Of a DNA stretch of 36,429 nt, positions 7,995-25,188 are shown one piece after another. Every line of letters starts with the position of its first letter. The first letter of the stretch is position 1. The stretch spans positions 1 to 36,429 of the forward strand of contig DASTWL010000066.1 of NCBI GenBank assembly GCA_035765895.1. The letters run 5' to 3'. Below the pieces are notes generated by a model that worked only from the letters and a program-made list of their open reading frames with translations, was not told the origin of the DNA and searched no databases. The DNA comes from Verrucomicrobiia bacterium. GTDB lineage: Bacteria; Verrucomicrobiota; Verrucomicrobiia; Limisphaerales; DSYF01. Made by a program: the position numbers and the translations under genes.

Positions 7995-10900
7995 ATGATT
8001 TCCTTGCGGCGGCTCATGGCGGGGATCGCTTTTGCCCTGGCGGGCTCGCTGGCGCTGGCCAACGACCCCGGCGGCGGGGCGAACGGCGTCGGCGCCAACG
8101 TCACGCTCACCAGCAGCGGCGGGAATGTCATTCTGGCTAACGGCATCATCTCCGCGACCATTGCCACCAACAACGCCAAGGTCACCTCGTATTTGTTCAA
8201 CGGCCGGCAGATGCTGGATGCCAGCGGGCTGATTTATTACAGCATGGACGGCGGCACGAGCTACGAGCAGCCGGCCAATTGCGTTTACCGCGTCGCCACG
8301 AACACCACAGATATGGTGGACATTTCGTGCCGGGTGACCTGGGCGGACCACACCAACCGCGTTCACGCGTTCGACATCGACGTGCATTACGTCCTGCGCC
8401 GCGGCGACACGGGCCTTTACGGCTACGCCGTTTTAAGCCATCCGGAGACCTATCCGGCGACCGGTGTGGGCGAGTGGCGCCTGGTCTGGAAGCTGCCGCA
8501 CACTTCAACCGACTGGACCTTTGAACGGATTTACGTCGATGCGCTGCGAAACTGGTATTGGGGCACCTACCAGGATTTTACGGCGGAAGCCGCCACTGGC
8601 ATTGCTGAAGTGGGGCTGCTGACAACCGGTCTGCGTGCGGGGCAATACGACTGCAAATACGAGTATTCGGCCGACTACCAGAAAATCGGCTGCTGGGGCC
8701 ACGCGAGCGATACGAACGGAGTCGGCGTCTGGGTGGTTCTCGGCGGCTGTGATTATTTGAACGACGGTCCGACGAAGAACGACCTCACGCTCGCTGAGTC
8801 CTACAATCTGCTTCATTTCGGCCGTAATCATTACAACGGCTCCGGGACGAGCGTTGCGGCGGGGGAAAACTGGTCCAAAATCTATGGGCCGTATCTGCTT
8901 TATTGCAACCAGACCGCGGCTGGCGCCGGTGCGGGCGACGTCCTGTGGGCGGACGCCCGAGCGCAGGTGCAGGCGGAGGTTGCCGCGTGGCCTTACGCGT
9001 GGCTGAGCGACAACACGAATTATCCCGTGGGTGCTTCCCGCGGTGCAGTTTCGGGCCGGTTCAGCGTGAACGATCCGCTCAAGCCATCGCTCGCCGCCGG
9101 CACGAACACCTGGATCGGGCTGGCGCAGCCAGATCCGGCCAGCAACTGGCAGTTCGACTCGAAACATTACCAGTATTGGACGCATCCGGATGCCGCGGGG
9201 CATTTTGTGGTTCCAGCGGTGCGGCCCGGAATTTACACGCTTTACGCCTTCACCGACGGCGCCGTGGGCGAATTTTCGCAGCCGAACGTCGTTGTGAGTG
9301 CCGGCGCGACGAACGCGCTCGGTGACGTGACGTGGACCGTGCCGCATCCCGGCGGGCGAATCGCGTGGGAGATTGGCGTGCCGGATCGTTCCGCAACCGA
9401 GTTTCGTCACGGCCACACCGATTATTGGTATCCGTTCCTGTGGAACACGATTTCCAATGAATGGTCGAACCCGCTCGAATACTTCGTCGGCACGAGCAAC
9501 TGGACCAATGACTGGAACTACGTTCATCCCGGCTATCTGGCTGGCGGCACTTGGAGCGGTTGGAAGTGGCGGATTCATTTCACCCTGACCAATCTGCCGT
9601 CGAGCGGCAGCGCGACGCTGACGATTGCGTGGGCCAGCGCCGATTCCGCGGCGGAGCAGGTGTTCGTGAACAACGAGAGCAGCGCGCTTGCGGATTTTTA
9701 TCCGTCCTGCCTGGGCGGCCCGACCGGCGGAAACGCGCACATCCGCGAAGGCATCCATGCCAAATACGGCGTGGATTACGTGACCATTCCGCTGTCGGCG
9801 CTGCAACTGGGCACCAATATCATCACGCTGGTCGAGCGGCGCACCGGTGGCGCCACGCAGCATGTCATGTATGACTACGTGAGCCTCGAATTGCCCGGTG
9901 CTCCGCCGACGCCGCCCTCGGGCCGCAGCCTCACTTGGGTGGGCGGCAGCAATGCCAACACCTGGGATCTCACCAACACGTTGAACTGGCTCATCACCTC
10001 GAACGGCGCACCGGCCACTTTTACAAATGGCGACAACGTCGCATTCGACGACAGCGGCAACAACAGTGTTCCCGTCACGAAAACCGGTTCACTGTCGCCG
10101 GGCCTGTTGACCGTGACGGGTAACAAAACCTGGACCCTTGGCGGTCCGGGTTCGCTGGATGGCTCGATGACGTTGTTCAAAACTGGAACGAACCGGCTGG
10201 TGTTGAACGGCACCAACAACTTCACCGGTGGCACGACCTTGGATGACGGCGTCCTGCAACTTGGCACCGGCGAACTCAGCAACGCGGGCATCGGGGTGGG
10301 GCCAATCACGTTCACCGGCGGCACGCTGCAACTGAATGGTTACGGCATCCCGGACAACGGCACGACCGCCTACGGCGCGCTGCCCAATCATCTGGTTGTG
10401 GCCGCGGGCGAATCCGGCACGATTCTCTGCCCGCAACGCATCGGCGGCGCCGGGCTTGGCGGTTCGCTCACCGGTGCCGGCACCTTGAATTTGAAGGTGG
10501 ATTACGTCCGCGGCCAGATCAGTGGCGACTGGTCCGGGTTCAACGGCCTGCTCAACGTCAGCCCCCGCAACACCAGCGGTGATCTGCGCTTTGCCAATGG
10601 GAATCCGGGCCTGCGCGCGGCAGCCATCAATCTTTCCGGGGGCGTCAGCTTCTATCTCATCAATCATTTCTACGGCTCGACCACGTTTGCCATCGGGTCG
10701 CTGGCCGGTCCGGCGAACACGTCGCTGGCCTCCGGCTCCGATGTGGGCGGGCGCATCGCCACCTTCCGCGTGGGCGGACGCAACGACGACGCCACCTTTG
10801 CCGGCAGCATTCGCGACAGCACGGGCGCCACAGGGATCACCAAAGTCGGTGCTGGCAGGTGGACCTTGAGCGGAACCAACACCTATTCCGGTTTGACAGC

Positions 10901-11504
10901 CGTGGCGGCCGGCACGTTGCAGGTGGTGGGCGTGATTTCGAACAACAGTCTCGTCGTGGTTTCCAATGGCGCCACGCTGGATTTGCCGGGCGTGATCACG
11001 GCCAATACGGTCCAGATCAACGCGGGCGGCTTTTTGACGGGCTGCGGCACGCTCAATGGCAATTTGCTGAACGATGGGACGGTGGTTTCCGACTGCGGCG
11101 CACCGGGGCGATTGACCATCTTTGGCAACGTGACCAACAACGGCACGCTGCAATGTCTCGTGGGCAGCGGCCTGCAGGTGAGCGGTGTGTTCGTGAACAA
11201 CGGTCTGCTGGACCTGCTGACGGGCGCGCCTGGTTTGCCGGTGAACTTCATCAACAACGGCGTGGTGCTCGATCGGAGCAACCTGGTCGTGGCAGGACTA
11301 GCGCTGGTGGGGATGGATTTGGAAGTGCGCGTTCAATCCTACGCGGGGCACGGCTATCAATTGCAGCGCACCGCGTCGCTGGCGACGCCCGAATGGCAGA
11401 ACGTCGGCGCAGCCCAGGACGGCGATGGCACGGTGTTGACCTTCACCGACGCGGGCGGCGCGACCGTGCCGCAGGGTTTTTATCGCTTTGCAGTGACGCC
11501 CTGA
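7995..11504 (+). CDS. Rhamnogalacturonan lyase (PL4-like) fused to autotransporter-associated beta-strand repeats
   Basis: The 1169-residue protein has a signal peptide (1-22, cleaved after ALA). Residues of about 30-330 look like the beta-sandwich catalytic domain of PL4 rhamnogalacturonan endolyases, including GEWRLVWKLPH and RNWYWGTYQDF, the kind of segment that carries the basic and Tyr catalytic residues of that family. About 340-440 matches the FnIII-like second domain (HFVVPAVRPGIYTLYAF) and about 450-630 the CBM-like third domain. From about 645 to 1080 come repeats of the autotransporter-associated beta-strand type (GGTTLDDGVLQLG near 743 and TAVAAGTLQVVG near 960). A small C-terminal domain (YQLQRTASL...GFYRF) is common on verrucomicrobial secreted proteins. 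No autotransporter barrel is present. The enzyme would cleave the rhamnose-galacturonate backbone outside the cell or at the surface. Confidence 0.82.
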   Translation: MISLRRLMAGIAFALAGSLALANDPGGGANGVGANVTLTSSGGNVILANGIISATIATNNAKVTSYLFNGRQMLDASGLIYYSMDGGTSYEQPANCVYRVATNTTDMVDISCRVTWADHTNRVHAFDIDVHYVLRRGDTGLYGYAVLSHPETYPATGVGEWRLVWKLPHTSTDWTFERIYVDALRNWYWGTYQDFTAEAATGIAEVGLLTTGLRAGQYDCKYEYSADYQKIGCWGHASDTNGVGVWVVLGGCDYLNDGPTKNDLTLAESYNLLHFGRNHYNGSGTSVAAGENWSKIYGPYLLYCNQTAAGAGAGDVLWADARAQVQAEVAAWPYAWLSDNTNYPVGASRGAVSGRFSVNDPLKPSLAAGTNTWIGLAQPDPASNWQFDSKHYQYWTHPDAAGHFVVPAVRPGIYTLYAFTDGAVGEFSQPNVVVSAGATNALGDVTWTVPHPGGRIAWEIGVPDRSATEFRHGHTDYWYPFLWNTISNEWSNPLEYFVGTSNWTNDWNYVHPGYLAGGTWSGWKWRIHFTLTNLPSSGSATLTIAWASADSAAEQVFVNNESSALADFYPSCLGGPTGGNAHIREGIHAKYGVDYVTIPLSALQLGTNIITLVERRTGGATQHVMYDYVSLELPGAPPTPPSGRSLTWVGGSNANTWDLTNTLNWLITSNGAPATFTNGDNVAFDDSGNNSVPVTKTGSLSPGLLTVTGNKTWTLGGPGSLDGSMTLFKTGTNRLVLNGTNNFTGGTTLDDGVLQLGTGELSNAGIGVGPITFTGGTLQLNGYGIPDNGTTAYGALPNHLVVAAGESGTILCPQRIGGAGLGGSLTGAGTLNLKVDYVRGQISGDWSGFNGLLNVSPRNTSGDLRFANGNPGLRAAAINLSGGVSFYLINHFYGSTTFAIGSLAGPANTSLASGSDVGGRIATFRVGGRNDDATFAGSIRDSTGATGITKVGAGRWTLSGTNTYSGLTAVAAGTLQVVGVISNNSLVVVSNGATLDLPGVITANTVQINAGGFLTGCGTLNGNLLNDGTVVSDCGAPGRLTIFGNVTNNGTLQCLVGSGLQVSGVFVNNGLLDLLTGAPGLPVNFINNGVVLDRSNLVVAGLALVGMDLEVRVQSYAGHGYQLQRTASLATPEWQNVGAAQDGDGTVLTFTDAGGATVPQGFYRFAVTP

Positions 11505-11520
11505 AGGCGCGCGTGAATTC

Positions 11521-11548
11521 TTGAATGACGCGCGGCGTCTGGCAGGAT
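11521..11548 (+). promoter_or_regulatory. Possible promoter of the SGNH esterase gene
   Basis: TTGAAT (11521-11526) could act as -35 and CAGGAT (11543-11548) as a weak -10 with a 16-base spacer. The ATG at 11556 follows 7 bases after the -10, which again fits a leaderless start. If real, translation would begin at 11556 rather than 11547. The -10 match is poor (only the A2 and the final A-T agree). Confidence 0.25.
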
Positions 11549-12932
11549 GCAGCGCATGCACGCCAATCAAGCCCCCCTGAAATCCAAACTGCTTCGTCTT
11601 GTCTCTCGTGTCGCCGCCGTTCTGACGGTGACCGCGACCCTGGCGCTGGCCGGCCGCTCAGCCGCGGTGCCCCCGCCTGCGACCTATGAACCCAAGCCGG
11701 AGGATCCATATTTCCTGAAATTCAACCCGTGTCTCGCGCCGCAACCCGGCCCGCTGTTGCTCAAGGAGGGAGACCGCCTGGCCATCATCGGCGACTCGAT
11801 CACCGAGCAGAAGATGTATTCGCGGATCATGGAGGATTACCTGACCGTGTGCGTGCCGCAGTTGAAAATCACCACGCGCCAGTTCGGTTGGAGCGGGGAA
11901 ACCGCGGAGGGCTTTCTCCAGCGCATGACCAATGACTGTCTCCGCTTCCATCCGACGGTTGCCACGCTCGCCTATGGCATGAACGACTTCCGCTATCGTC
12001 CGTTCGACCTTCTGAACAGCGAATGGTATCGCGCGAATTACACGGCCGTGGTGCGCAGCCTCAAGGCCGAAGGCGCGCGGGTGGTGCTCGGTGCGCCCGG
12101 CTGCGTCGGCAAGGTGCCAAGCTGGACCAGGTCCGACGCCTATTCGCTGGACGAGCTGAACGTCAGCCTGTGCGCGTTTCGTGACATCGACATCGAGATC
12201 GCGGCGGATGAAGACACGCGTTTTGCCGATGTGTTTTGGACCATGTTCAAGGCCGGCCACGAGGCCCGGCAGCGCTTTGGCACGGCGGACGCGCCCTACA
12301 TGGTTTCCGGCCATGACGGCGTGCATCCAGGCTGGGCGGGACATTTGGTGATGGCCTACACGTTTCTGCGGTCGCTCGGTCTGGATGGCGACATCGGCAC
12401 CTTCACGGTCGATCTGGCCGCCAACCAGGCGGAAGCCAGCGCGGGCCACACCATCGAAAGCTTTCAAAATGGCGAACTGACCGTGACAAGCGCGCGGTAT
12501 CCATATTGCGCCACGGGTGAAACGAACAGCGACAATTCCATCCGCTCGGGCATGGAAATCGTGCCGTTCAATCAGGAGTTGAACCGCCTGATGCTGGTTG
12601 CGAAGAACGGAACGGCGCCAAAGTATCAGGTCACGTGGGGAACAGAATCGCGGGTTTACACCAGCGCGCAGCTCGCGGCGGGCGTCAACCTCGCGGCCGA
12701 TTTCGCGGTCAATCCGTTCTCTGACGCCTTCAATCGCGTGGACACCGCCGTCAAGGCCAAGCAGGAATACGAGACGAAGCAAATCAAGAGCATCTTCCAT
12801 GGAGCGGAAGGCAAACAGGACATGGAAGCGGCGGTGAAACGCACCGAGACCGAGCGCGCTCCACTGGCAGCGGCCGTTGCCAACGCGGTCGTGCCCGTGA
12901 CGCACACCATCAAAATCCGGGCCGCCGAGTAA
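11547..12932 (+). CDS. SGNH/GDSL hydrolase, probable exported carbohydrate esterase
   Basis: The protein has 461 residues with an N-terminal export signal (about 1-40, RVAAVLTVTATLALAG core). The four SGNH blocks are all visible: GDSIT with Ser84, a Gly in GWSGETAEGF (block II), Asn146 in YGMNDF (block III), and Asp257-x-x-His260 in DGVHPGWAGH (block V). The enzyme should therefore be an active serine esterase. The residues after 270 form an added beta-rich domain seen in related planctomycete and verrucomicrobial proteins, and the C-terminal part is rich in Lys, Glu and Ala. Placed between a rhamnogalacturonan lyase and a GH95 enzyme, deacetylation of pectic sugars is the most likely job; this is inferred from context. 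An alternative start is the ATG at 11556. Confidence 0.83.
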   Translation: MQRMHANQAPLKSKLLRLVSRVAAVLTVTATLALAGRSAAVPPPATYEPKPEDPYFLKFNPCLAPQPGPLLLKEGDRLAIIGDSITEQKMYSRIMEDYLTVCVPQLKITTRQFGWSGETAEGFLQRMTNDCLRFHPTVATLAYGMNDFRYRPFDLLNSEWYRANYTAVVRSLKAEGARVVLGAPGCVGKVPSWTRSDAYSLDELNVSLCAFRDIDIEIAADEDTRFADVFWTMFKAGHEARQRFGTADAPYMVSGHDGVHPGWAGHLVMAYTFLRSLGLDGDIGTFTVDLAANQAEASAGHTIESFQNGELTVTSARYPYCATGETNSDNSIRSGMEIVPFNQELNRLMLVAKNGTAPKYQVTWGTESRVYTSAQLAAGVNLAADFAVNPFSDAFNRVDTAVKAKQEYETKQIKSIFHGAEGKQDMEAAVKRTETERAPLAAAVANAVVPVTHTIKIRAAE

Positions 12933-12962
12933 AACGAATTCTGAAACAGCGTGACAGAACTC

Positions 12963-15344
12963 ATGAACACGAGGCGTTGGTTGCAATGGTTGTTGTTGGC
13001 CGGGGTGATGGCGGGCGGGCTCACGTTGAGCCCGTCGCTCCGGGCGGATGCGCCCGACACCACCCTCTGGTATCAACAGCCGGCCCGGAATTGGAACGAG
13101 GCCCTGCCGGTCGGCAATGGCCGGCTGGGGGCGATGCTCTTTGGCGGCGTGACGGACGAGCGGCTCCAGTTGAACGAGGACTCGCTCTGGTCCGGCGCAC
13201 CCCAGGATGCGGACAATCCCAGGATGCGCGCCGCGCTGCCGCAGATTCGTGAGCTGCTGTTCGCCGGAAAATACGCCGAAGCCCAACGGCTCGCCGACCG
13301 CACACTGGTCTGCGTGGGGCCCGGCTCGGGCAGCGGGCAAGGGCGCAAGGTGGCCTATGGTTGTTATCAGACGCTCGGCGATTTGCACCTGGTCTTCAGC
13401 GGGGCCACCAACGTCACGCCAAAAAACTATCGTCGTGACCTTGACCTGGGCATGGCCACATCTCGCGTGAGTTACGAATTGAACGGCGTGAAGTTCGAGC
13501 GCGAAGTGTTCGCCAGTCATCCGGATCAGGTTCTCGTGGTCCGCCTGACGGCGAATCGTCCGGGCGCACTGGACTTCACCGCCCGGCTGTCGCGACCCGA
13601 GGCGGCGGAAATCGAACCGGCTGGACCGGACCAGTTGCTGATGCATGGCCAGATGTGGAATGGCACAAACTGGACGGGCATGAAATTCGCCGCCCGCCTT
13701 CAGGCTCAAGTCGAAGGCGGCCGGGTTTCCAGTTCAACCAACGGTTTGGAAATCACGCACGCCAACGCGGTGACGCTGCTGCTGACGGCGGCCACCGATT
13801 ACACGATGCAACTGCCCGACTGGCGCCACGGTGACTCCGAGGCCAAGACGGCCGAACAATTGCAGGCCGCCGCCGCCAGATCGGTTGCAAGTCTCCGCGC
13901 CGCGCATGTGAAGGATTACCAGGCCCTGTTTCGGCGTGTGACCCTGGATTTGGGACGGACGGAGGCGGCGAAAAAGCCCACCGACGAGCGGTTGCAGGCG
14001 GTCAAGAACGGCGGCTTTGACCCGTCGCTCATCACGCTTTACTACAACTTCGGCCGGTATCTGCTGATCAGTTCCTCGCGCCCCGGCGGCATGCCGGCCA
14101 ACCTGCAGGGGCTTTGGGCTGATGGCCTCCAGACGCCGTGGAATTGCGATTACCACGCGAACATCAATCTGCAGATGATTTACTGGCCCGCGGAAACCGC
14201 CAACCTTCCAGAGTGCTTCGAGCCACTCGACCGCTACATCGCTTTTCTCACCGGACCCGGCGCGAAGTCGGCGCAGGTGAATTACGGCGCGCGCGGCTGG
14301 ACGGTGCACACGCTCGCCAACGTCTGGGGCTTTACGTCGCCCAGCGAATCGCCGTCGTGGGGCATGACGCCCTCCGCCGGCGCCTGGCTCGCCCAACATT
14401 TGTGGGAGCATTTCGCGTTCAGTCAGGACACAAATTACCTCCGGCGCGTGCTGCCGATTCTGCGCGGCTCGGCGGAATTCAGTCTCGACTGGCTCGTGCC
14501 CGATCCTGGGACCGGCAAGCTGGTGGCCGGCCCGGCGACGTCGCCGGAAAATCATTTCATTACCGCTGACGGACAGAACGGTTCGTTGTGCATGGGCCCG
14601 ACGGTGGAACAGGAAATTGTCTGGGACGCGTTTACCAACTACCTCGAAGCCGCGCAGATTCTCGGTGTGCATGAGCCTGTGGTGGCGGAAGTCGAAGGCG
14701 CGCTGGGCAAACTGCGCGGTCCGCAAATCGGCAGCGACGGGCGGCTCATGGAATGGTCGGAGGAGTTCAAGGAACCGGAGCCGGGTCATCGTCATGTTTC
14801 GCATCTTTTTGCGCTCCATCCCGGGCGCGAAATCACACTCCGGGGCACCCCGACGCTGGCGGCCGCCGCGCGCAAGTCGCTCGAATACCGCCTCGCCCAC
14901 GGCGGCGGACACACCGGCTGGAGTCGGGCCTGGGTGGTCAACTTTTGGGCGCGCCTCGGCGACGGGGAGCAGGCCGGCGACAACCTTCAGGCGTTGCTCG
15001 CAAAATCCACGATGCTGAACCTGTTCGACACCCATCCGCCGTTCCAGATCGATGGCAACTTCGGCGGCGTGGCGGGCGTCTGCGAAATGCTTCTGCAGAG
15101 TGAGAATGGCGAAATCGAATTGTTGCCGGCCTTGCCAAAATCCTGGGCGAACGGATCGGTCAAAGGGCTGCGGGCGCGCGGCGGCTTCGAGGTCGATCTG
15201 GCGTGGCGCGCTGGCCGGCTCGCTTCCGCAGAAATCCGCGGTGCCGCGGGCACGCCTTGCCAGGTGCGGCTCGGCGACAAGGTTGTGAACGTGAAATTGA
15301 ATTCGCGCGGGACGGCGAGGCTGGATGCGAATTTGAACCCTTGA
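12963..15344 (+). CDS. Glycoside hydrolase family 95 (alpha-L-fucosidase / alpha-L-galactosidase type)
   Basis: The 793-residue protein starts at the ATG at 12963, directly before a signal peptide ([19 protein letters not shown]). The N-terminal domain has the GH95 hallmarks [19 protein letters not shown] and LNEDSLWSG. The (alpha/alpha)6 catalytic domain shows HANINLQM (Asn400 and Asn402, matching the paired Asn that position water in the Bifidobacterium fucosidase AfcA), [12 protein letters not shown] (Glu549/Glu551, region of the catalytic acid) and [12 protein letters not shown] (Asp697, matching the AfcA activating Asp). It releases alpha-linked L-fucose or L-galactose by inversion. A usually conserved Asn in QMNYWPAE is Ile here. 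It ends 6 bases before the next gene, so the two are surely co-transcribed. Confidence 0.92.
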
Positions 15345-15350
15345 GCGCGT

Positions 15351-18300
15351 GTGCCGGATCGCTTTCTCCTGAATGCCCGGCCGCGGGGCGGGCGACCTTC
15401 TCGGCCATTGCGGTGGTCCTCGTTTGCCCCGCAAAGGCGCCACGGCCTGCTCTGGCTCCTGCTCGTTGGTCTGGTCGCCTCCGCGGCGGAAAATCCGGTT
15501 GAACTCGGTCCCAATGGCCGGCCGGTCAACCTCGTTGAAAACATTGACCGGCCATTGCGTTACACGCCGGTCGGCACGGACTTTGTCATCACGAACGGCG
15601 CCGAGTATTTCAACCGGCCGCTTTACGGGAACAATTCCGCGTTTCGCGTGGATGCGGGGGATCGCCCGGAGTTTTCGCTCTACTTGCCCGGGCGCGGCGG
15701 CAATTTGCGGCTGGGTCTGAAGACGCCGCTCGGCATCAAATGGCTCAACGACGCGGACCAGATCATCGCGCGCTATCGTCCGGGCGCGATGGAATACACC
15801 GTCCGTGATCCCGTGTTGATGAGCCTGCGCACGCTTCACCTGACCGCGCTGCCGCTGAGCGGACGTCAGGGCTTCATTGTTCGCGCCGAGGCCAATTCCG
15901 CGTGGATGGATGTTGAACTCATCTGGGCTTACGGCGGCGCCAACGGGATGAAAGGACGTCGCGGGGGCGACATCGGCTGCGAACGCGAACCCGTGGCTCA
16001 ATTTTTTCAACTTCAAACCGGGCAATGCGCCGGGAGCGAATTTGCCGTTGCCTCGAATACCTTTACGCTGCGCACCAAGACCGCAACCATCGCCGGTGCG
16101 GCATCCGCCGGCACGGTATTGTCCCTCGGCAATGCCGCCGAGTGGGCACACCCCGACCAACTGCTGGCTGATATCGGAAGCACTTCAGACAGGTCGATCA
16201 ACGACTTTCCCGTGCTGGTGGGACGCGTGCGACTGTCGCACGAATCGCCCGTGTTTCTCGTTTTGCAGCCCGTGACACCGGGGCTGGCGCCCCTTCAACC
16301 CGATCAACTTGCGGACGCCTTCGACGCGGCCGCCGCCCGTCGTCAAGGGGTGGCTGGGCGCGTCACGGTGAAAACGCCGGATCCTTTCATCAATGCCGCC
16401 GCCGCGGCGTTGAATGTCGCGGCCGACGGCATTTGGGATGAGGCACAACAATCCTTCATGCACGGTGCGGTGGCGTGGCGCATGCGGCTGCTCGGCTGGC
16501 GCGGCGCGCATGCCGGCGACGCGCTGGGCTGGCACGAGCGCACCGCTGCGCATCTGACCGGCTTTGCCCGGCAGCAAAACACCAATCCCATTCCGGCCAC
16601 ACTGCCGCCCGCGGATGCCGGCGCGAATCTCTCCCGCAACGAAGCGGCGTTGCACAGCAATGGCGATCTGACGCGCAGCCACTACGACATGAACCTGGTC
16701 GCGGTGGATGCGTTGTTCCGGCACCTGTTGTGGACCGGCGACCGCGCTTTTGCGGAAAGCATGTGGCCCGTGATCGAACGGCACCTTGCATGGGAACGGC
16801 GGCTCTTCCGGCGGGAGTTTGGTCCGGACAAGCTGCCGCTCTACGAAGGATACGCGTGCATTTGGGCCAGCGACGACCTGGCCTACAACGGGGGCGGGGC
16901 GGCGCACGCCTCAGCTTACAACTACTATCACAACCGGATGGCGGCGCGGGTGGCGCGCTGGCTGGGCAAGGATCCGTCGCCTTATGACCACGAAGCGGAG
17001 TTGATCGCACGCGCGATGCAGAAATATCTCTGGCTGCCGCGCGAGGGCAGTTTCGCGGAGTGGAAGGACTGGCTCGGCCGGCAACAGGTTCACCCGGCTG
17101 CCGCGCTCTGGACGTTTTATCACACGCTGGATTCCGAAGCGTCCACGCCGCAGGAAGCGTGGCGGATGAGCCGGTTCGTGGACACGCATTTTCCGCGCAT
17201 CCCGGTGCGCGGCCCGGGTGTGCCCGAAGGAAACTTCACGTTGCCGACCACCACGTGGATGCCCTACACATGGTCGCTCAACAATGTGGTGATGGCGGAG
17301 TCCATGCACACCTCGCTCGCGTATTGGCAGGCCGGGCGAAGCGACGCGGCGTTCCCCCTCTTCAAGGGCGCGCTGCTCGACAGCATGTATCTCGGGCTGT
17401 GTCCGGGGAACGTTGGCATGTGCACCGCCTACGACGCCTATCGCGGGGAGTCGCAACGCGATTTTGCCGACGGCGTGGGGGCCACGTCCCGTGCGCTGAT
17501 CGAAGGCTTGTTTGGCATCAAGCCAGATGCGCTGGCAGGCGTGCTGCGCATTGAACCGGGTTTTCCCGCGGCCTGGGACCATGCCACGCTGGAGCATCCC
17601 GATGTGTCGTTCCAATTCAGGCGCGACGGATCGAGCGAAACCTACATTGTGGATGCCCATTTCCCGCGACCGATGGCGTTGCGCTTAAACGTGGCGGCAT
17701 TGGGTGAAGCTGTGGCTGCCGTGACCGTAAATGGCGTTCCGGCGAAATGGGAAACGGCCACCGGCGACCCCGGGTGGCCGCGTGTGGCAATTGCCGCGCC
17801 GGCGGCACCCCATCAGGAGGTGAAAATTGCCTGGCAGGGTGGACCGGTGACGATGAGCAAACCGCTGGCGGCAGTTGAACCGCCTGTGACCGCCTCATCG
17901 CAATCCGCCCCGGTGAATTGGCACACGCCGATACTGCCGGCAGCAACCTTTGCCTGTGTGGATCTCTCGCCGCTCTTCAATGATTCGGTCACGCAGATTT
18001 TCCGGCATGAGTATCTGGCGCCGCGCTCGCCCTTCTGTTCACTGGCAGCCCCGAAGCAGGGCATCGGCAGCTGGTGTCATCCGAATGACTCGTTCGACGT
18101 GGATGATTCCGGTCTGCGCGCGGTGGCGGCCGCCCAGGGCAACCGCATCCTGCTGCCCAATGGCATCCCGCTGGCCACGCCCGGCGCGGCGGACAGCCGC
18201 AACATCGCGTTCGTGTCGCAGTGGAACAATTTCCCCGACGAAGTGACGCTGCCGTTGCGCGGCCGATCCTCGCACGCTTATTTGCTGATGGCGGGTTCGA

Positions 18301-18662
18301 CCAGCGCCATGCAATCGCGGTTTGACAACGGCGAGGTGATTTTCACTTACACGGACGGCCGCACCGCGCGGCTGGCCTTGCGCAATCCGGAAACCTGGTG
18401 GCCCATCGATCAGGATTATTTCATCGATGACTTCGCCTTCCGCTGGTCCGGTCCATTGCCACCGCGCGTGGACTTGCGCACTGGCAAGGTTCGCGTGCTC
18501 GACCTTGCAGCGTTCAAAGGCAAAGGCGGCCGCGTGCCGGGTGGCGCGGCCACGGTGCTTGACCTGCCGCTCGATGCCGGCAAGACGTTGAAGTCCCTGA
18601 CCGTTCGGGCTTTGGCGAATGAGGTGGTGATCGGCCTGATGAGCGTGACGCTGGCGCGCTGA
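15351..18662 (+). CDS. DUF4450 family protein, probable six-hairpin glycosidase
   Basis: The 1103-residue protein starts with GTG at 15351, six bases after the GH95 stop; no ATG lies nearby in frame. A long basic N-terminus precedes a hydrophobic signal (LLWLLLVGLVASAAA-like, about 33-46). The segment RPVNLVENIDRPLRYTPVG and the motif FNRPLYGNNSAFRVD are typical of the DUF4450 N-terminal beta domain. Residues of about 340-760 have the alternating helices of an (alpha/alpha)6 barrel, with acidic positions in EGYACIWASDD and RDFADGVGATSRALIEGLF that could be catalytic. The last 270 residues are beta-rich. DUF4450 proteins are found next to glycosidases acting on rhamnose-containing polymers, but I know of no firmly established reaction. 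Tight coupling to GH95 suggests both act on the same side chain. Confidence 0.8.
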   Translation: MPDRFLLNARPRGGRPSRPLRWSSFAPQRRHGLLWLLLVGLVASAAENPVELGPNGRPVNLVENIDRPLRYTPVGTDFVITNGAEYFNRPLYGNNSAFRVDAGDRPEFSLYLPGRGGNLRLGLKTPLGIKWLNDADQIIARYRPGAMEYTVRDPVLMSLRTLHLTALPLSGRQGFIVRAEANSAWMDVELIWAYGGANGMKGRRGGDIGCEREPVAQFFQLQTGQCAGSEFAVASNTFTLRTKTATIAGAASAGTVLSLGNAAEWAHPDQLLADIGSTSDRSINDFPVLVGRVRLSHESPVFLVLQPVTPGLAPLQPDQLADAFDAAAARRQGVAGRVTVKTPDPFINAAAAALNVAADGIWDEAQQSFMHGAVAWRMRLLGWRGAHAGDALGWHERTAAHLTGFARQQNTNPIPATLPPADAGANLSRNEAALHSNGDLTRSHYDMNLVAVDALFRHLLWTGDRAFAESMWPVIERHLAWERRLFRREFGPDKLPLYEGYACIWASDDLAYNGGGAAHASAYNYYHNRMAARVARWLGKDPSPYDHEAELIARAMQKYLWLPREGSFAEWKDWLGRQQVHPAAALWTFYHTLDSEASTPQEAWRMSRFVDTHFPRIPVRGPGVPEGNFTLPTTTWMPYTWSLNNVVMAESMHTSLAYWQAGRSDAAFPLFKGALLDSMYLGLCPGNVGMCTAYDAYRGESQRDFADGVGATSRALIEGLFGIKPDALAGVLRIEPGFPAAWDHATLEHPDVSFQFRRDGSSETYIVDAHFPRPMALRLNVAALGEAVAAVTVNGVPAKWETATGDPGWPRVAIAAPAAPHQEVKIAWQGGPVTMSKPLAAVEPPVTASSQSAPVNWHTPILPAATFACVDLSPLFNDSVTQIFRHEYLAPRSPFCSLAAPKQGIGSWCHPNDSFDVDDSGLRAVAAAQGNRILLPNGIPLATPGAADSRNIAFVSQWNNFPDEVTLPLRGRSSHAYLLMAGSTSAMQSRFDNGEVIFTYTDGRTARLALRNPETWWPIDQDYFIDDFAFRWSGPLPPRVDLRTGKVRVLDLAAFKGKGGRVPGGAATVLDLPLDAGKTLKSLTVRALANEVVIGLMSVTLAR

Positions 18663-19976: not shown

Positions 19977-21197
19977 CTATGCGAGCAACTCACCCGCCTG
20001 CTTCATCAATTGCCCGATCGGCAGCCGGTTCGGGCAGGCGCGCTCGGCATTTGAGAAGTCGAGCGTCGCGATGCGATCGCGGGTCCCGACAGGCAGGCCG
20101 GCAAAGGTTTCCTTCGCCAGACGCATATCGCCGTAGGTGTGATGATACATCAGCGAGCGCATCACATCCGCCACCGGCACCCGTCGCCGGAGTGCGCCCT
20201 CGCACAAGTGTGCGCAGCCGTCGCAATAGTGGGAGCAGGTCGCGGCGGCGTATTCGCGCAGCGCGGAATGGTCAGCCGCCGTGAGCCGGGTCTTGTCCAG
20301 CGCGGCGGCGACGTTGGCCGTGAGGACGGTGATGTTGGGCATCTGCGAACAGATGGCGGCGACTTGCGGGTTTTCCCAAACCGCCTTGAGCCTGGCCTGG
20401 TGTTCGGAAAACCCGCGCTTCACGAAATGGCCGCCCAGCTTCAGGTCGGCGTCGGTTTCGGTTTTGATGGGGCCGCCGCCCTGGGTTTTCATGGCGGTCA
20501 GTCCGATGCCCGCCTTCTCGCAGGCATCCATCGCCGAGCGCATCGCGTCGGTTTGCATCAGCCGGTAATCGTATTTCAGCATGATGCCATCGATCCAGCC
20601 GAGCTTTGCCGCGGCTTCCAGCGTGCGTTCCATGTTCCCATGCGTGCTGAAGCCGAAGAATCGGATTTTCTTTTCCGCCTTCATCTTCTCCGCCCACGCT
20701 TTGATTTCGGGCGTGAAGGCATCGCCCGATCCGACACCGTGCAGGAAGAAGAGGTCCACGTAATCTGTCTTCAGCCGCCGGAGGGATTCTTCCAGTTTTC
20801 CCTGAACGTTCTCCACCGCGTGACCGCCGCCCGCCTTGGTGACGAGGAAGATTTTTCTGCGAACTTCGGGGTGCTTTTCGAAATACATCCCGATGCCTTT
20901 TTCGCTGTTGCCATTCGTGTAGGAATTGGCCGTATCCCAGTAGGTGACGCCAAAATCGAGCGCGCGTTGCAACACCAGCTGGTTGGAGGCAATGTCAAAA
21001 ATGCCTCCCAGTGAAAGCATGGAGACTTTCACCCCTGTTTTGCCGAAGGTGCGGGTGCCGACGGTGACGCGGCTTTCCTCGGCACCAGTTGCATTGGTGG
21101 TTTGGGCGAAGGTCCGGACGGCGCCAAGGGCCGAGGCGGCTCCGGCCAAGCCGGCGAGTTTTACGAAATTTCTGCGGGTAACGTGACTGTTTTGCAT
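19977..21197 (-). CDS. Tat-exported aldo/keto reductase with C-terminal Cys cluster
   Basis: The start is the ATG at 21197, which places a twin-arginine signal at the N-terminus (HVTRRNFVKLAGLAGAASALG, Arg8-Arg9). The frame is open further upstream but that part overlaps the preceding gene. The 406-residue product has the aldo/keto reductase tetrad: Asp88 and Tyr93 (YWDTANSY), Lys121 (VTKAGG) and His153 (FFLHGVG). After the barrel there are Cys321, Cys325, Cys328 and Cys332 in CSHYCDGCAHLC, and Cys388 in RACPNRLPI, a layout resembling the [4Fe-4S] tail of AKRs with a ferredoxin-like domain. It is the last gene of the minus-strand redox operon, 20 bases after the polyferredoxin. Export of a nicotinamide-type reductase is unusual; it may carry a bound cofactor or be fed through its cluster. 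Confidence 0.88.
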   Translation of the reverse strand: MQNSHVTRRNFVKLAGLAGAASALGAVRTFAQTTNATGAEESRVTVGTRTFGKTGVKVSMLSLGGIFDIASNQLVLQRALDFGVTYWDTANSYTNGNSEKGIGMYFEKHPEVRRKIFLVTKAGGGHAVENVQGKLEESLRRLKTDYVDLFFLHGVGSGDAFTPEIKAWAEKMKAEKKIRFFGFSTHGNMERTLEAAAKLGWIDGIMLKYDYRLMQTDAMRSAMDACEKAGIGLTAMKTQGGGPIKTETDADLKLGGHFVKRGFSEHQARLKAVWENPQVAAICSQMPNITVLTANVAAALDKTRLTAADHSALREYAAATCSHYCDGCAHLCEGALRRRVPVADVMRSLMYHHTYGDMRLAKETFAGLPVGTRDRIATLDFSNAERACPNRLPIGQLMKQAGELLA

Positions 21198-21217
21198 GGT
21201 GTTCTTGCCTTTCGTGT

Positions 21218-23152
21218 TCAGGTTCTGGCGGTCAAAGAGTGTCTGGGATTGCGGGATTCGTTCTCGGCGGTGACGCGGATCGCACGGAGACCACTGACGG
21301 GACATTCGTGCTGGCAGACGCCGCAGCCGATGCAGCGGTCCGGATCGACCATTGGTTTTTGCAACCGCACTTCGATCAACGCGCGCCGGCCGGCCTCCGG
21401 CGCTTCCGGCCAGGCGGAGTTCCCGGCCACGGTGATCGCATTCGCCGAGTTCTCCGTGATCAACCTGCGCTCCGCGGGCGTCTCATTTTCCAGGCGGATG
21501 AAATAGTCTCCCGTGGCCAGTTTGCCGTTGCGCAACGCGGCACCGTCGAGTTGAAGGTTGGTCGTCGTGGCCGAGCGAATGATCCGGGCGCCATTTTCGA
21601 TGACTTGAAATTCCTCACGGACGTAAATCGCCTTCGGGCTCACGGGGCAATTCTCCTGACAAACAATGCAGGGCATGTCCATGGCCCAAGGCAGGCAGCG
21701 GCTGCGATCCACGAAGGCCGTGCCCATGCGAACCGGCCCCGCCGTCGCGAAATCGCCGGCGCCGTGCTTTTCATCCAGCGTCAGCGGACGAATGGCAGCG
21801 GTCGGGCAAACATTTCCGCACGCGATGCAGTTGAGCTGGCAACCACTCGTGCCAATCCGAAAATTTAGGACTGGCGTCCACAGTCCGCCGAGTCCCGCTT
21901 CCAGCAGTGCGGGTTGAATCACATTCGTCGGGCACACGCGCATGCACTGGCCGCACTTGATGCAGCGATTCAGGAAATCTTCCTCCGCGAGCGCACCGGG
22001 CGGGCGGACGACATTGGAGTTCCAGTTGTGATCCAGAAATCCGCCCAGCCGTGCCGCCGGAACCGCCACCACGCCGGAGACGCCGGCGGCCAGAAAGCCG
22101 CGTCGCGTCACGCCCGTCGCCTCGTCCTCACCGGATGCCGAACGGTTCAGGCTGTAACCCATCTTCGCTTTCCGGCATGCGTGCAGGCAGTTCATGCACA
22201 GCAGGCACTCGCTCGTATGAATCGTGCCGAACGGGTCGCACGCGCCCTCGCAATTGTTCTCGCACAGTTCGCAACCGCTGCACTCGCCCACGCGCTTGCC
22301 GATGCGCCAGGGCGTCCACCGCACCAGCACCCCGAACAACGCACCCAACGGACAGATAAACCGGCAATAGAATCGCGGTATCCACAGGTTCAACAGCACG
22401 GCGGCAAGAAACACCAAAGTGATCGTCCATGCGGCGACGTAGAAGCGGTTTGCCGCCCCGATGCCATCAAACACGGTGAGCACCACCAGATTGAACGAGC
22501 GGTAAACCAAGGGAATCGGGTCGAGCAATCCGGTTTGCAACGAAGCCGCGGCCAGCGCGTCGGGCTGGGCAATAAGTCCGATTCCGATCCACACCGCGAC
22601 GATGGTTGAAAACCAAAGCACCGCTGACTTGAAACGACCGGCGAGCTTGCGCGTCGTCAGCCAGGTGAGAATCAACAAACCCCCGATGGCCAGCAATGAA
22701 GCCACGGCCGGCTTCCGATGCGGCAATCGGAGGGCCTCGCTGATTAATCCGCCTGCCGCCGCGCTGAGCAAAGCAATGAGCACGTAATACTTGATGACCT
22801 GAGACTGACGAAACTGGTTCATCGCCACCCGCTCGGCATGTTTCTTCCAACGGCGACCCAGCCAGCCGATGAACTGATGCAACGCGCCGAAGGGACAAAG
22901 CCAGCCGCAGAAGAAGCGTCCGAACACGACCGTCAAGGCGACGGTTGCCACGCCCCAGAGCAATCCGGCGTAAACCGTTTTCGTGGTGAGCAACGTCCCG
23001 AGCGCGACCAGCGGGTCGAGTTGCAGGAACCAGTTCACCGGCCAGCCACGCCATTGCCACCAGCGCTCGCCGACGGTGGTGACCACGCAGAACCAGACGA
23101 AGAGCAGGAAGAAAAATACCTGCGCGATGCGGCGGGCTTTGATGATGTTCAT
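21218..23152 (-). CDS. Membrane polyferredoxin, NapH-NapG-like fusion
   Basis: The ATG at 23152 has a strong ribosome-binding site (GGAGG, 7-base spacing); a GTG one codon earlier is less likely. The 644-residue protein first has several membrane helices with two NapH/NosR/CcoG-type motifs, CGWLCPFGALH (82-92) and CRFICPLGALF (263-273). Two ferredoxin-like Cys groups follow (291-326, CSGCELCENNC and CLLCMNCLHAC). An internal twin-arginine segment, TRRGFLAAGVSGVVAV (349-364), leads into a NapG-like part with four Cys groups (397-407, 438-449, 486-502 and 607-617). It looks like the quinol-oxidising membrane subunit NapH joined to the periplasmic ferredoxin NapG. It should move electrons between the quinone pool and a periplasmic partner, likely the neighbouring exported proteins. 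No nap reductase gene is present in the window. Confidence 0.88.
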   Translation of the reverse strand: MNIIKARRIAQVFFFLLFVWFCVVTTVGERWWQWRGWPVNWFLQLDPLVALGTLLTTKTVYAGLLWGVATVALTVVFGRFFCGWLCPFGALHQFIGWLGRRWKKHAERVAMNQFRQSQVIKYYVLIALLSAAAGGLISEALRLPHRKPAVASLLAIGGLLILTWLTTRKLAGRFKSAVLWFSTIVAVWIGIGLIAQPDALAAASLQTGLLDPIPLVYRSFNLVVLTVFDGIGAANRFYVAAWTITLVFLAAVLLNLWIPRFYCRFICPLGALFGVLVRWTPWRIGKRVGECSGCELCENNCEGACDPFGTIHTSECLLCMNCLHACRKAKMGYSLNRSASGEDEATGVTRRGFLAAGVSGVVAVPAARLGGFLDHNWNSNVVRPPGALAEEDFLNRCIKCGQCMRVCPTNVIQPALLEAGLGGLWTPVLNFRIGTSGCQLNCIACGNVCPTAAIRPLTLDEKHGAGDFATAGPVRMGTAFVDRSRCLPWAMDMPCIVCQENCPVSPKAIYVREEFQVIENGARIIRSATTTNLQLDGAALRNGKLATGDYFIRLENETPAERRLITENSANAITVAGNSAWPEAPEAGRRALIEVRLQKPMVDPDRCIGCGVCQHECPVSGLRAIRVTAENESRNPRHSLTART

Positions 23153-23159
23153 CACGGCG

Positions 23160-23164
23160 CCTCC
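23160..23164 (-). promoter_or_regulatory. Strong Shine-Dalgarno site (GGAGG) of the polyferredoxin gene
   Basis: On the minus strand GGAGG is followed by 7 bases and the ATG at 23152. It is one of the few canonical ribosome-binding sites in this window and decides for ATG 23152 over the GTG at 23155. It sits inside the operon, consistent with translation of an internal cistron. Confidence 0.6.
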
Positions 23165-23203
23165 GTTTCAGTGGGCGAATTCGATTGCCCGCTCTTCAAA
23201 GCT

Positions 23204-24196
23204 TCAGCCCACATGGTCCCTCGCTGGTTTGAGTGATTCGTAATCGATCGTGCCGACGCCCGCGGCAGCGGCCTTCCCGATGAACGTCAGGTCGGCCGCA
23301 GTTTTACCAAGCAGGGTGGCGCCGAACGCGTCGGCGGCCACCTGGTCGGTGCTGACGATCATTGTGTTCGTAGGCTGCAAATCCTCCAGCGACCCGCCCG
23401 TGGGCCCGTTCGTGAGCATGCTCGTGGTGCCGTCAAGGATCACCATCGTGGGCCGCACCATGGTGGCGAGTTCGGAAATGATCGTGTGGATGTCCTGATG
23501 AAACACGTTGCGACGTCCGCCCAGCAGACCATACCAGTTCTTCATGGACATGGACGCGCCGCTGCGATGGTGATCTTTCACCGGCGAAATTCCGATCAGC
23601 TTGGTCGCGCGCTGGAACGGTTCGATGAACAATGGCCAGTCGCGAATGAGCCGGGCGTTGGGGAGCGTGGTGGGTTTGAACGACGCGGCCCCGGGCAAAA
23701 TCACTTTGGCCCCGGCAGCTTCAGCGGCCTTCGCGATGCCGCTCAAGGTGAAGCAGCTTTGCGGATCGTTGATCGGATTATCCGCGACGACCACGGATGA
23801 TGCTCCGGCGGCAAAGCACAATCGCGCCACTTCCGCGACGAGTTTGGGATTGGCCGTGGCGGAGAGGGCAGCGGGCGATGCGAAGGCGGCGTTCACCTTG
23901 AGCACCACGCGGTCGCCGGATTGGATGAACTGCTCGATGCCGCCCAACGCCTGCAAGGCCCGGTTGATGGTCTTCACGCGATCGGAGCCGGTGATGATGC
24001 TCATGCGCTGGCCGAGTTTCGGCAGCGAATAGTCCGGCAACGAAACGGTCTCAGCGGCGGGTTTGCCCGTCGGCCCCTGCGTGTCATGCAGCCAATATCC
24101 CACGCCGCCCGTGGCCGCGACAATGGCTCCGGCCTTCGCCGCGCGCGTCAGGAAATCGCGGCGTCGGACCGGTGGGTTGCTGTGGTTTGGGTTCAT
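23204..24196 (-). CDS. Tat-exported DUF362 family protein
   Basis: The 330-residue protein opens with a twin-arginine signal (VRRRDFLTRAAKAGAIVAATGG, Arg11-Arg13). The remainder matches DUF362: GDRVVLKVNAAFA, ADNPINDPQSCF, the SPVKDHHRSGASMSMKNWYG block, RPTMVILDGTTSM, and DQVAADAFGATLLG close to the C-terminus. DUF362 proteins are often found with ferredoxin domains or in iron-sulfur enzyme operons; their reaction is not established. This copy has no ferredoxin Cys motif of its own, which fits with clusters being supplied by the polyferredoxin encoded 48 bases downstream. The start codon overlaps the stop of the DUF6599 gene by 4 bases (ATGA), so translation is coupled. Confidence 0.88.
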   Translation of the reverse strand: MNPNHSNPPVRRRDFLTRAAKAGAIVAATGGVGYWLHDTQGPTGKPAAETVSLPDYSLPKLGQRMSIITGSDRVKTINRALQALGGIEQFIQSGDRVVLKVNAAFASPAALSATANPKLVAEVARLCFAAGASSVVVADNPINDPQSCFTLSGIAKAAEAAGAKVILPGAASFKPTTLPNARLIRDWPLFIEPFQRATKLIGISPVKDHHRSGASMSMKNWYGLLGGRRNVFHQDIHTIISELATMVRPTMVILDGTTSMLTNGPTGGSLEDLQPTNTMIVSTDQVAADAFGATLLGKTAADLTFIGKAAAAGVGTIDYESLKPARDHVG

Positions 24197-25188
24197 TTGT
24201 TTGCGGCCGTCAGTCGTTGAAGCAAGTCGTTGCCGATTTTCTCCGCGGCGGATGACGTCGGCGCAGCATGGATGCCTGCAACGTAGCGGCCCCGGGAAAA
24301 CACGAGTTCAAGGCTGCCCATGAGTTCAACCGGCCTGCCGAGTTCGCCGATGGCCGTCCCGGCCTCCTTGCCGCCGTTCTCGACCAGGAAGGCGCGGTAA
24401 GCGTCACGTAAAGCGGTCGCCGCTTCTGGTGTTGCACAGGCGGTGACGAACGCCATCAGCTCGGTGCCGTCCGGATTGTATTGCGCCGTGAACACATTCT
24501 TGAATCGATCGAATCCGAACGCGTCGGAGGCCTGGAGTTCGACACTGCCGGCGACGCGGCAATCGGTGGGCAGAATTATCATTTCGGGCATCTGTTCCAC
24601 GCTGCGGACGGAAGTCGCGGCCACGAAGCGCTTGGCCATGGAGAGCATGGCAGTGCGGAGCGGTTCGCTGGTGGAGGAACCGACGGCTTCGATGTAGTTG
24701 GTGCCTGCGACGAAGAAGATGGCGTTCTGGGTTCGATAGGCGTAGGGCGTGAGGTCCAGTGTCTCGCCTTCCGCGCGGCGTTGCGTGGAGAAAACTGAAA
24801 ACGCCTGGGGCACGCCGTTCATGCCGTAGGCAAACCATTCAAACCAATCGTTGGAGGCGTTCTTCAACGCAAACCGCCGGCAATCCATCCGGGCCACGCC
24901 GGTGGAGACATACAACTCGGCTTTGCCGTCGATTTTGTCGTAGAGATTCTCCGGCGTGAACTGCTCTGGCGCGCCAAACGCCTGCAATTCCGGGGGCAGC
25001 CAGGCGGAGTCGATGGCGGACCGGGATGGTGCGGCCGGAGCGGCGGCCAGTTGTCGGGCCATGAGCACCGCGGGGTTGAAGGAGAATTGTTTCAGGAAAA
25101 CGCCGCCGCCGATGGCCAGCAGACAAAACAGGATGAACCAACTCAACACCTGCTCGGTCTTGCGATCATTTGTGTCTGGAGACGGCAT
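24193..25188 (-). CDS. DUF6599 family membrane-anchored protein
   Basis: The 331-residue product starts with a short cytoplasmic stretch and one membrane helix (about residues 14-31, LSWFILFCLLAIGGGVFL), leaving the rest in the periplasm. The segments PENLYDKIDGKAELYVSTG and DWFEWFAYGMNGVPQAFSVFSTQRRAEG are recognised as DUF6599-type. No catalytic residues are known. It is the first gene of a four-gene minus-strand operon with DUF362, the polyferredoxin and the aldo/keto reductase. The 197 bases upstream hold no gene and should contain the operon promoter, but I see no convincing -35/-10 pair there. Confidence 0.75.
   Translation of the reverse strand: MPSPDTNDRKTEQVLSWFILFCLLAIGGGVFLKQFSFNPAVLMARQLAAAPAAPSRSAIDSAWLPPELQAFGAPEQFTPENLYDKIDGKAELYVSTGVARMDCRRFALKNASNDWFEWFAYGMNGVPQAFSVFSTQRRAEGETLDLTPYAYRTQNAIFFVAGTNYIEAVGSSTSEPLRTAMLSMAKRFVAATSVRSVEQMPEMIILPTDCRVAGSVELQASDAFGFDRFKNVFTAQYNPDGTELMAFVTACATPEAATALRDAYRAFLVENGGKEAGTAIGELGRPVELMGSLELVFSRGRYVAGIHAAPTSSAAEKIGNDLLQRLTAANK

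Follow-up and report, generated by a model that had tools for sequence, protein, structure and literature searches.

The four-gene cassette described here is best explained, with a probability of roughly 0.55, as a quinone-linked redox system of the bacterial envelope that is composed of two joined modules and served by an exchangeable aldo/keto reductase (AKR). It lies on the minus strand, between positions 19977 and 25188, of a 36,429-nucleotide stretch of DNA from a Verrucomicrobiia bacterium (GenBank assembly GCA_035765895.1, contig DASTWL010000066.1), hereafter referred to as the window, which corresponds to one whole contig of a 4.6 Mb genome that is distributed over 96 contigs and is 96% complete. 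In order of transcription, and on the basis of open reading frame calls and family searches, the genes encode a DUF6599 protein, a DUF362 protein, a NapH-NapG fusion polyferredoxin (PFD), and the AKR. DUF362 and PFD together look like the redox core, whose exported clients DUF6599 seems to partner, and the AKR has the appearance of an enzyme that can be exchanged.

Relevant coordinates are provided in Table 1. The scores listed there are to be compared with Pfam cut-offs of 27 bits for PF20244 and 24 bits for both PF04015 and PF00248. A preliminary description of this DNA had placed the four families on one strand, with one 4-base overlap and two gaps, of 51 bases between DUF362 and PFD and of 20 bases between PFD and the AKR. 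The families are confirmed by the searches and the junctions by direct inspection of the sequence.

Table 1. Coordinates of the cassette genes and associated features in the window.
Feature	Positions	Strand	Basis
DUF6599 protein, 331 aa	24193..25188	-	PF20244 153 bits, AF2 pLDDT 92, hydropathy
DUF362 protein, 330 aa, Tat signal	23204..24196	-	PF04015 130 bits, AF2 pLDDT 94
Codons of twin arginine R12-R13, DUF362 Tat signal	24158..24163	-	position computed from open reading frame
NapH-NapG fusion polyferredoxin (PFD)	21218..23152	-	NapG/NapH/MauM models, Cys columns, hydropathy
AKR with Tat signal, 406 aa	19977..21197	-	PF00248 95 bits, conserved tetrad
ATGA overlap of DUF6599 stop and DUF362 start, 4 bases	24193..24196	-	read directly in sequence

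To follow the distribution of the cassette, GTDB genomes were searched with DUF362 as the query, which yielded 293 relatives and 80 kept loci; positional counts are restricted to loci whose contig flank is long enough. DUF6599 immediately precedes DUF362 in 70 of 74 such loci, PFD immediately follows it in 54 of 59, and 32 of 43 have an AKR nearby. The hosts belong to the Verrucomicrobiota, the Desulfobacterota and other deltaproteobacterial bins, the Planctomycetota (Phycisphaerae), and the Sumerlaeota, and the DUF362 sequences of the kept loci, from other phyla and from relatives, are 57-72% identical to that of the window. At least three gene orders were found, namely DUF6599-DUF362-PFD-AKR as in the window, AKR-DUF6599-DUF362-PFD (loci L015, L045, L055, and L130), and DUF6599-AKR-DUF362-PFD (L107 and L108). 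Within the phylum of the window DUF6599 is rare, occurring in 8 of 241 Verrucomicrobiota genomes. Five of these eight (the window's own, G056, G178, G151, and G087), representing five different families, hold all four genes together, and in the other three DUF6599 adjoins DUF362 or an AKR only.

A second survey, independent of this one and with a separate search for each family, covered 198 Desulfobacterota genomes and placed cassette-type DUF362 in 12 genomes, PFD in 13, and the AKR in 14. Both PFD and DUF6599 lie within 4 kb of cassette-type DUF362 in all 12, as does the AKR in 10. Twelve genomes share DUF362 and PFD and 11 share DUF362 and the AKR, for which the hypergeometric p values, calculated with genome relatedness ignored, are 2e-18 and 1e-14, respectively. 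Distance matrices calculated for each protein over 46 cassettes correlate with one another, with r values of 0.50-0.79. The association of these families is well beyond chance, and the concern that they might rarely meet outside of close relatives does not hold for a cassette that spans several phyla in three gene orders. No additional gene is shared by more than 10 of the 80 neighborhoods; the candidates considered (rhomboid-like, DnaK, PHP-domain, and others) are each limited to a few loci.

The cassette joins two modules, one formed by DUF362 and PFD and the other by DUF6599 and a client exported by the twin-arginine translocation (Tat) pathway, either an AKR or a DUF362 protein, since these sub-pairs also occur by themselves. 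In the Desulfobacterota survey, DUF362 and PFD stand together without an AKR or other cassette genes in 24 of 43 loci with a second type of DUF362, and six of seven divergent AKRs are paired with DUF6599. A pair of DUF6599 and a Tat-signal DUF362 likewise exists, its DUF362 being divergent. Where DUF6599 lies outside of a cassette, an AKR or DUF362 adjoins it in 17 of 20 sampled loci, and the contig end cuts the remaining three. The number of AKR copies beside one core varies from none to three, with two or three in several loci. Cassette-type Tat-AKRs also stand alone in genomes G244 (contig C170, locus L131), G360 (C37, L132), G406 (C44, C298, and C53), and G342 (C34, L128), the first three of which carry the cassette as well and the last of which does not. 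The multiple AKRs per core and the solitary copies in cassette-bearing genomes fit an exchangeable AKR. In AKR-less cassettes, no recurrent substitute enzyme was found. One of these, in strain NaphS2 (L082), consists of DUF6599, DUF362, and PFD. All four genes are present at L045, which belongs to a metagenome-assembled genome assigned to Desulfosudis oleivorans.

Two further arrangements were noted. In ten loci (L111-L116 and L118-L121) a divergent Tat-signal DUF362 subfamily, which is detected weakly by Pfam (31-40 bits) and keeps the His-x9-Lys...His motif, forms a two-gene unit with DUF6599. In another ten (L133-L142), DUF362 (200-290 bits) is accompanied by a shorter polyferredoxin of the NapH-NapG type in a second widespread pair that DUF6599 does not adjoin.

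The model of DUF362 matches the N-terminal domain of the LarA racemase with VIA Z values of 15.0-16.9 over 202-211 residues. The top match is a malate/lactate racemase (Z 16.9), twelve entries are from the LarA family or related to it, and the next unrelated fold scores 5.6. Foldseek agrees with this assignment. His 209, Lys 219, and His 233, which form a His-x9-Lys...His motif, are invariant in 81 of 81 sequences and align with the register of His 174, Lys 184, and His 200 in LarA, albeit weakly (hhalign, P 0.15). Lys 184 of LarA is the lysine that holds the cofactor. Because the comparison of sequence profiles with hhalign is not significant by itself, the link between DUF362 and LarA rests on the structural comparison and on their membership in the same Pfam clan, CL0471 (PMC11770544). 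Given the enzyme fold and the invariant motif, DUF362 is more likely the redox partner of PFD than the accessory or maturation part for which it had been taken.

Tat motifs are carried by three of the four proteins. The twin arginine of DUF362 (Arg 12-Arg 13) is present in 81 of 81 aligned sequences and that of the AKR (Arg 8-Arg 9) in 53 of 54. Whereas the preliminary description was correct in listing these two signals, its count was incomplete, for PFD contains a third, internal pair at Arg 351 and Arg 352 (57/58 and 58/58, respectively). The motifs support the proposed Tat-dependent envelope system, and the proteins that bear them are predicted to be exported. In five loci (L072, L079, L089, L092, and L099), all from Planctomycetota and mostly from Phycisphaerae, tatC and tatA stand side by side directly next to the cassette, upstream of it and on the opposite strand.

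PFD, as anticipated, has the features of a multi-helix iron-sulfur membrane protein. Six strongly hydrophobic segments are evident from hydropathy in its N-terminal region. Its two CxxxCP motifs (Cys 83/Cys 87 and Cys 264/Cys 268) and the cluster ligand sets between Cys 292 and Cys 327 are each conserved in 57-58 of 58 sequences, the latter being predicted to hold two [4Fe-4S] clusters on the cytoplasmic side. The NapG part contains 16 cysteines in four sets, conserved in 58 of 58, for four predicted periplasmic [4Fe-4S] clusters. The twin arginine, TRRGFLAAGVSGVVAVPAARLGG at 350, directly precedes the last helix, which is weakly hydrophobic and falls under the hydropathy cut-off that the six other segments exceed. 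By family, the protein is supported as a quinone-linked electron conduit of the NapH-NapG type, in keeping with the earlier proposal. A deltaproteobacterial NapH-NapG fusion with this arrangement requires both Sec and Tat, as judged by reporter fusions, and the characterized NapGH relatives function as quinol dehydrogenases (PMC5449189).

In the AKR the catalytic tetrad is intact, with Asp 88, Tyr 93, Lys 121, and His 153 present in 54, 53, 54, and 54 of 54 sequences, respectively. Toward the C-terminus, Cys 325, Cys 328, and Cys 332 (C-x2-C-x3-C) are found in 54 of 54 and Cys 388, which is followed by a proline, in 53 of 54; these four cysteines would suffice for one [4Fe-4S] cluster. Most of the AKRs that are paired with DUF6599 outside of the cassette carry two full C-x2-C-x2-C-x3-C motifs (eight cysteines).

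DUF6599 is the one membrane-anchored protein that had been expected, with a single N-terminal hydrophobic helix from residues 12 to 37. Its model displays this membrane helix followed by two similar tandem domains, delineated by residues ∼62-194 and ∼199-331. It most closely resembles TM1622, the PknH ectodomain, TiME, TP0453, and RseB (VIA Z 7-11), among which are periplasmic sensor and accessory proteins, and the polypeptide models as a membrane anchor with two PknH/PsbP-like periplasmic domains. Since DUF6599 is constantly paired with proteins exported by Tat, it most likely has a role in docking or assembly.

From these features we infer a scheme for the quinone coupling, the docking partners, the role of DUF6599, the direction of electron flow, and the type of substrate. 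PFD would be inserted by Sec and Tat and would exchange electrons with the quinone pool and hand them along its [4Fe-4S] clusters, two on the cytoplasmic side and four in the periplasm. The LarA-fold DUF362 would serve as its main exported partner. The AKR, with its intact tetrad and predicted cluster, would enter the same chain as an exchangeable, substrate-specific exported enzyme, and DUF6599, anchored in the membrane and facing the periplasm, may act in docking or assembly by holding the Tat-exported clients at the membrane. Electrons are proposed to pass from quinol to PFD and on to DUF362 and the AKR, which would reduce a substrate, a carbonyl (or 2-oxo) compound, outside of the inner membrane. 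This direction was chosen by analogy with NapGH, the sequence itself fixing neither way.

Several observations weigh against the scheme. PFD scores well short of the NCBIfam equivalog cut-offs, both for NapG (79 versus 269 bits) and for NapH (73 versus 213 and 61 versus 234), and its use of quinone is thus suggested by analogy only. The loop of the AKR at the position of the NADP-phosphate clamp reads I-C-S-Q-M-P-N in the alignment and contains neither lysine nor arginine. To our knowledge, free nicotinamide is not expected outside of the inner membrane, and without a recognizable basic clamp the source of hydride for the AKR is puzzling. The VIA Z values for DUF6599, 8-11, are just moderately above background, and an AKR is missing nearby in 11 of the 43 well-flanked loci.

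The strongest rival is a periplasmic dehydrogenase that operates in the opposite direction, with the exported AKR and/or DUF362 oxidizing an alcohol or a 2-hydroxy acid and the electrons entering the quinone pool through the [4Fe-4S] clusters of PFD. AKRs are reversible enzymes, and the carriers of the cassette are mostly anaerobic deltaproteobacterial lineages, which would benefit from a dehydrogenase that reduces quinone. In addition, the LarA relatives of DUF362 transiently oxidize 2-hydroxy acids (PMC12611868). Set against this are the quinol dehydrogenase activity of the NapGH relatives, as described above, and the finding that substrate uptake or catabolic genes recur beside the cassette in no more than 10 of 80 loci. 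Electron flow into the quinone pool is entertained as a possible, if tentative, alternative.

A second alternative, which fits either direction of electron flow, is that DUF362 employs a nickel-pincer nucleotide (NPN) as LarA does, is loaded in the cytoplasm, and is then exported by Tat. PFD would either keep it reduced or accept hydride equivalents from it, while the AKR would share its hydroxy/oxo substrate. The fold match at Z 16.9 and the invariant histidines and lysine in the LarA register agree with such a function, as does the His-x9-Lys spacing, from which not even the divergent Tat-DUF362 proteins depart. Of 37 cassette genomes, 31 contain LarC and three of the six that lack it contain LarE, such that 34 have one or the other; moreover, the two genomes whose DUF362 is without an equivalent of His 233 (G099 and G143) also lack LarC, and nothing in them scores above the LarE cut-off. 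An apparent dependence in a small sample (LarC in 5/5 cassette versus 0/3 non-cassette genomes), however, vanished against the background, LarC being common in any case (152 of 241 Verrucomicrobiota genomes, or 63%, and 169 of 198 Desulfobacterota genomes, or 85%), and the association is not significant. Three genomes (G254, G264, and G266) contain the cassette and neither LarC nor LarE. The C-terminal domain of LarA, with Tyr 294, Gln 295, Lys 298, and Trp 358, is absent, the match ending near residue 300 of DUF362 (approximately 270 in LarA), and the counterparts of Asp 72, Arg 75, and probably His 108 are changed. DUF362 is not classed as a LarA enzyme; its use of a nickel-pincer cofactor is possible and unsupported by the gene distribution, and we regard the complete proposal as doubtful.

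The preliminary description had envisioned a line from quinol to the AKR as the terminal enzyme, with DUF362 and DUF6599 merely accessory or maturation parts. The intact tetrad and cluster ligands of the AKR, and its inclusion in most cassettes, speak for that version. It is difficult to reconcile, however, with the DUF362-PFD pairs that have no AKR, with the AKR-less cassettes, and with the strong conservation, enzyme fold, and invariant motif of DUF362. DUF6599, for its part, is a constant neighbor of Tat-exported AKRs or DUF362 proteins even where PFD is lacking. That version is considered unlikely, and the view taken here differs in that DUF362 is the core redox partner and the AKR the variable part. 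Finally, a repair or detoxification system, in which the exported AKR would use quinol electrons to reduce damaged carbonyls on envelope proteins or lipids, shares with MsrPQ (methionine sulfoxide; discussed in PMC5449189) the logic of a membrane partner and a Tat-exported reductase, but it is highly improbable given that no stress gene recurs beside the cassette across lineages, that the carriers are largely anaerobic, and that the multiplied AKRs suggest substrate choice rather than general repair.

With regard to the locus itself, the start codon of PFD is ATG, and a GTG is also present at 23155. A longer reading frame for the AKR with a start at 21305 is unlikely, since the Tat motif and the ATG after the 20-base gap fit a start at 21197. 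A site scan revealed no sigma-70-like promoter inside the four-gene unit and no terminator-like site within its gaps. The flanking genes, which encode a HEAT/Big_5 protein on the plus strand and a small protein on the minus strand with an ABC transporter further upstream, fall outside of the unit. A run of carbohydrate-active genes on the plus strand (7995-18662) lies near the cassette and encodes a polysaccharide lyase of family 4 (rhamnogalacturonate lyase) with PATR repeats, a GDSL esterase, a GH95 enzyme (fucosidase family), and a DUF4450 protein; it looks like a polysaccharide utilization region. Elsewhere, genes of the enoyl-CoA hydratase family adjoin the cassette in four deltaproteobacterial bins (L045, L047, L068, and L094), the third of which additionally has a GMC oxidoreductase, and these neighbors are a possible hint as to substrate.

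In the DUF362 tree the copy from the window clusters with those from Limisphaerales, the bins of this verrucomicrobial order being its nearest relatives. Transfer between phyla is unproven, since the taxon labels of the bins are loose. As for a mobile origin, DUF6599 has no plasmid match, DUF362 has one distant match (30%), and viral matches were not found.

A search of the open-licence literature revealed no paper on this combination of proteins, in agreement with the earlier remark that no known complex has such a composition, although a description elsewhere is possible. Within the same literature, no paper was found on DUF6599 or on a "periplasmic aldo-keto reductase," none of the DUF362 papers concerns the cassette as judged by title and abstract, and no such cassette was found in the accessible part of an acetone study of Desulfococcus biacutus. 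The present analysis places two uncharacterized families, DUF6599 and Tat-exported DUF362, in one well-defined context with a model that can be tested, and extends the wiring of the NapGH type from quinone to periplasm to a new set of partners across several phyla. It also prompts one to ask how the AKR, once exported, is fueled where there is no free nicotinamide. A bolder formulation, which we consider unlikely, is that DUF362 is a Tat-exported, LarA-fold redox enzyme whose nucleotide cofactor is a nickel pincer (or is bound to lysine in another way), that PFD connects it to the quinone pool, and that exchangeable iron-sulfur AKRs are its partners. If DUF362 did use a cofactor of the LarA type, a respiratory branch would be added to the LarA superfamily, and a respiratory system with a pincer or other lysine-bound cofactor would exist outside of the cytoplasmic membrane.

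Comparison with known systems places each component in context. With the lactate/malate racemase superfamily, DUF362 shares the fold of the N-terminal domain and the His/Lys/His register, whereas it differs in its Tat signal, its polyferredoxin partner, the missing C-terminal domain, and the other, altered active site residues. The AKR has the barrel and the Asp-Tyr-Lys-His tetrad of known aldo/keto reductases but no evident basic NADP clamp; the divergent Tat-AKRs have the Tat signal in common with it and differ by two C-terminal [4Fe-4S] motifs in place of one predicted cluster. The fusion protein Q1NSB0 from MLMS-1 (Tooke et al. 2017, PMC5449189) displays the same succession of a NapH part, a twin arginine before a weakly hydrophobic helix, and a NapG part; the topic of that paper is membrane insertion, DUF362 does not appear in its text, and in the portion available neither function nor gene context was found. 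NapGH, together with MauMN, shares with PFD a membrane part of the NapH type, which contains CxxxCP motifs and two sets of cluster ligands, as well as the NapG-type, Tat-exported part with four [4Fe-4S] sets. Unlike NapGH, however, PFD is a single fused polypeptide that scores far under the NapG and NapH equivalog cut-offs and is linked to DUF6599, DUF362, and the AKR rather than to a Nap or Mau enzyme. NapGH-like wiring to an exported enzyme is, in fact, a known kind of machine; its composition here is not.

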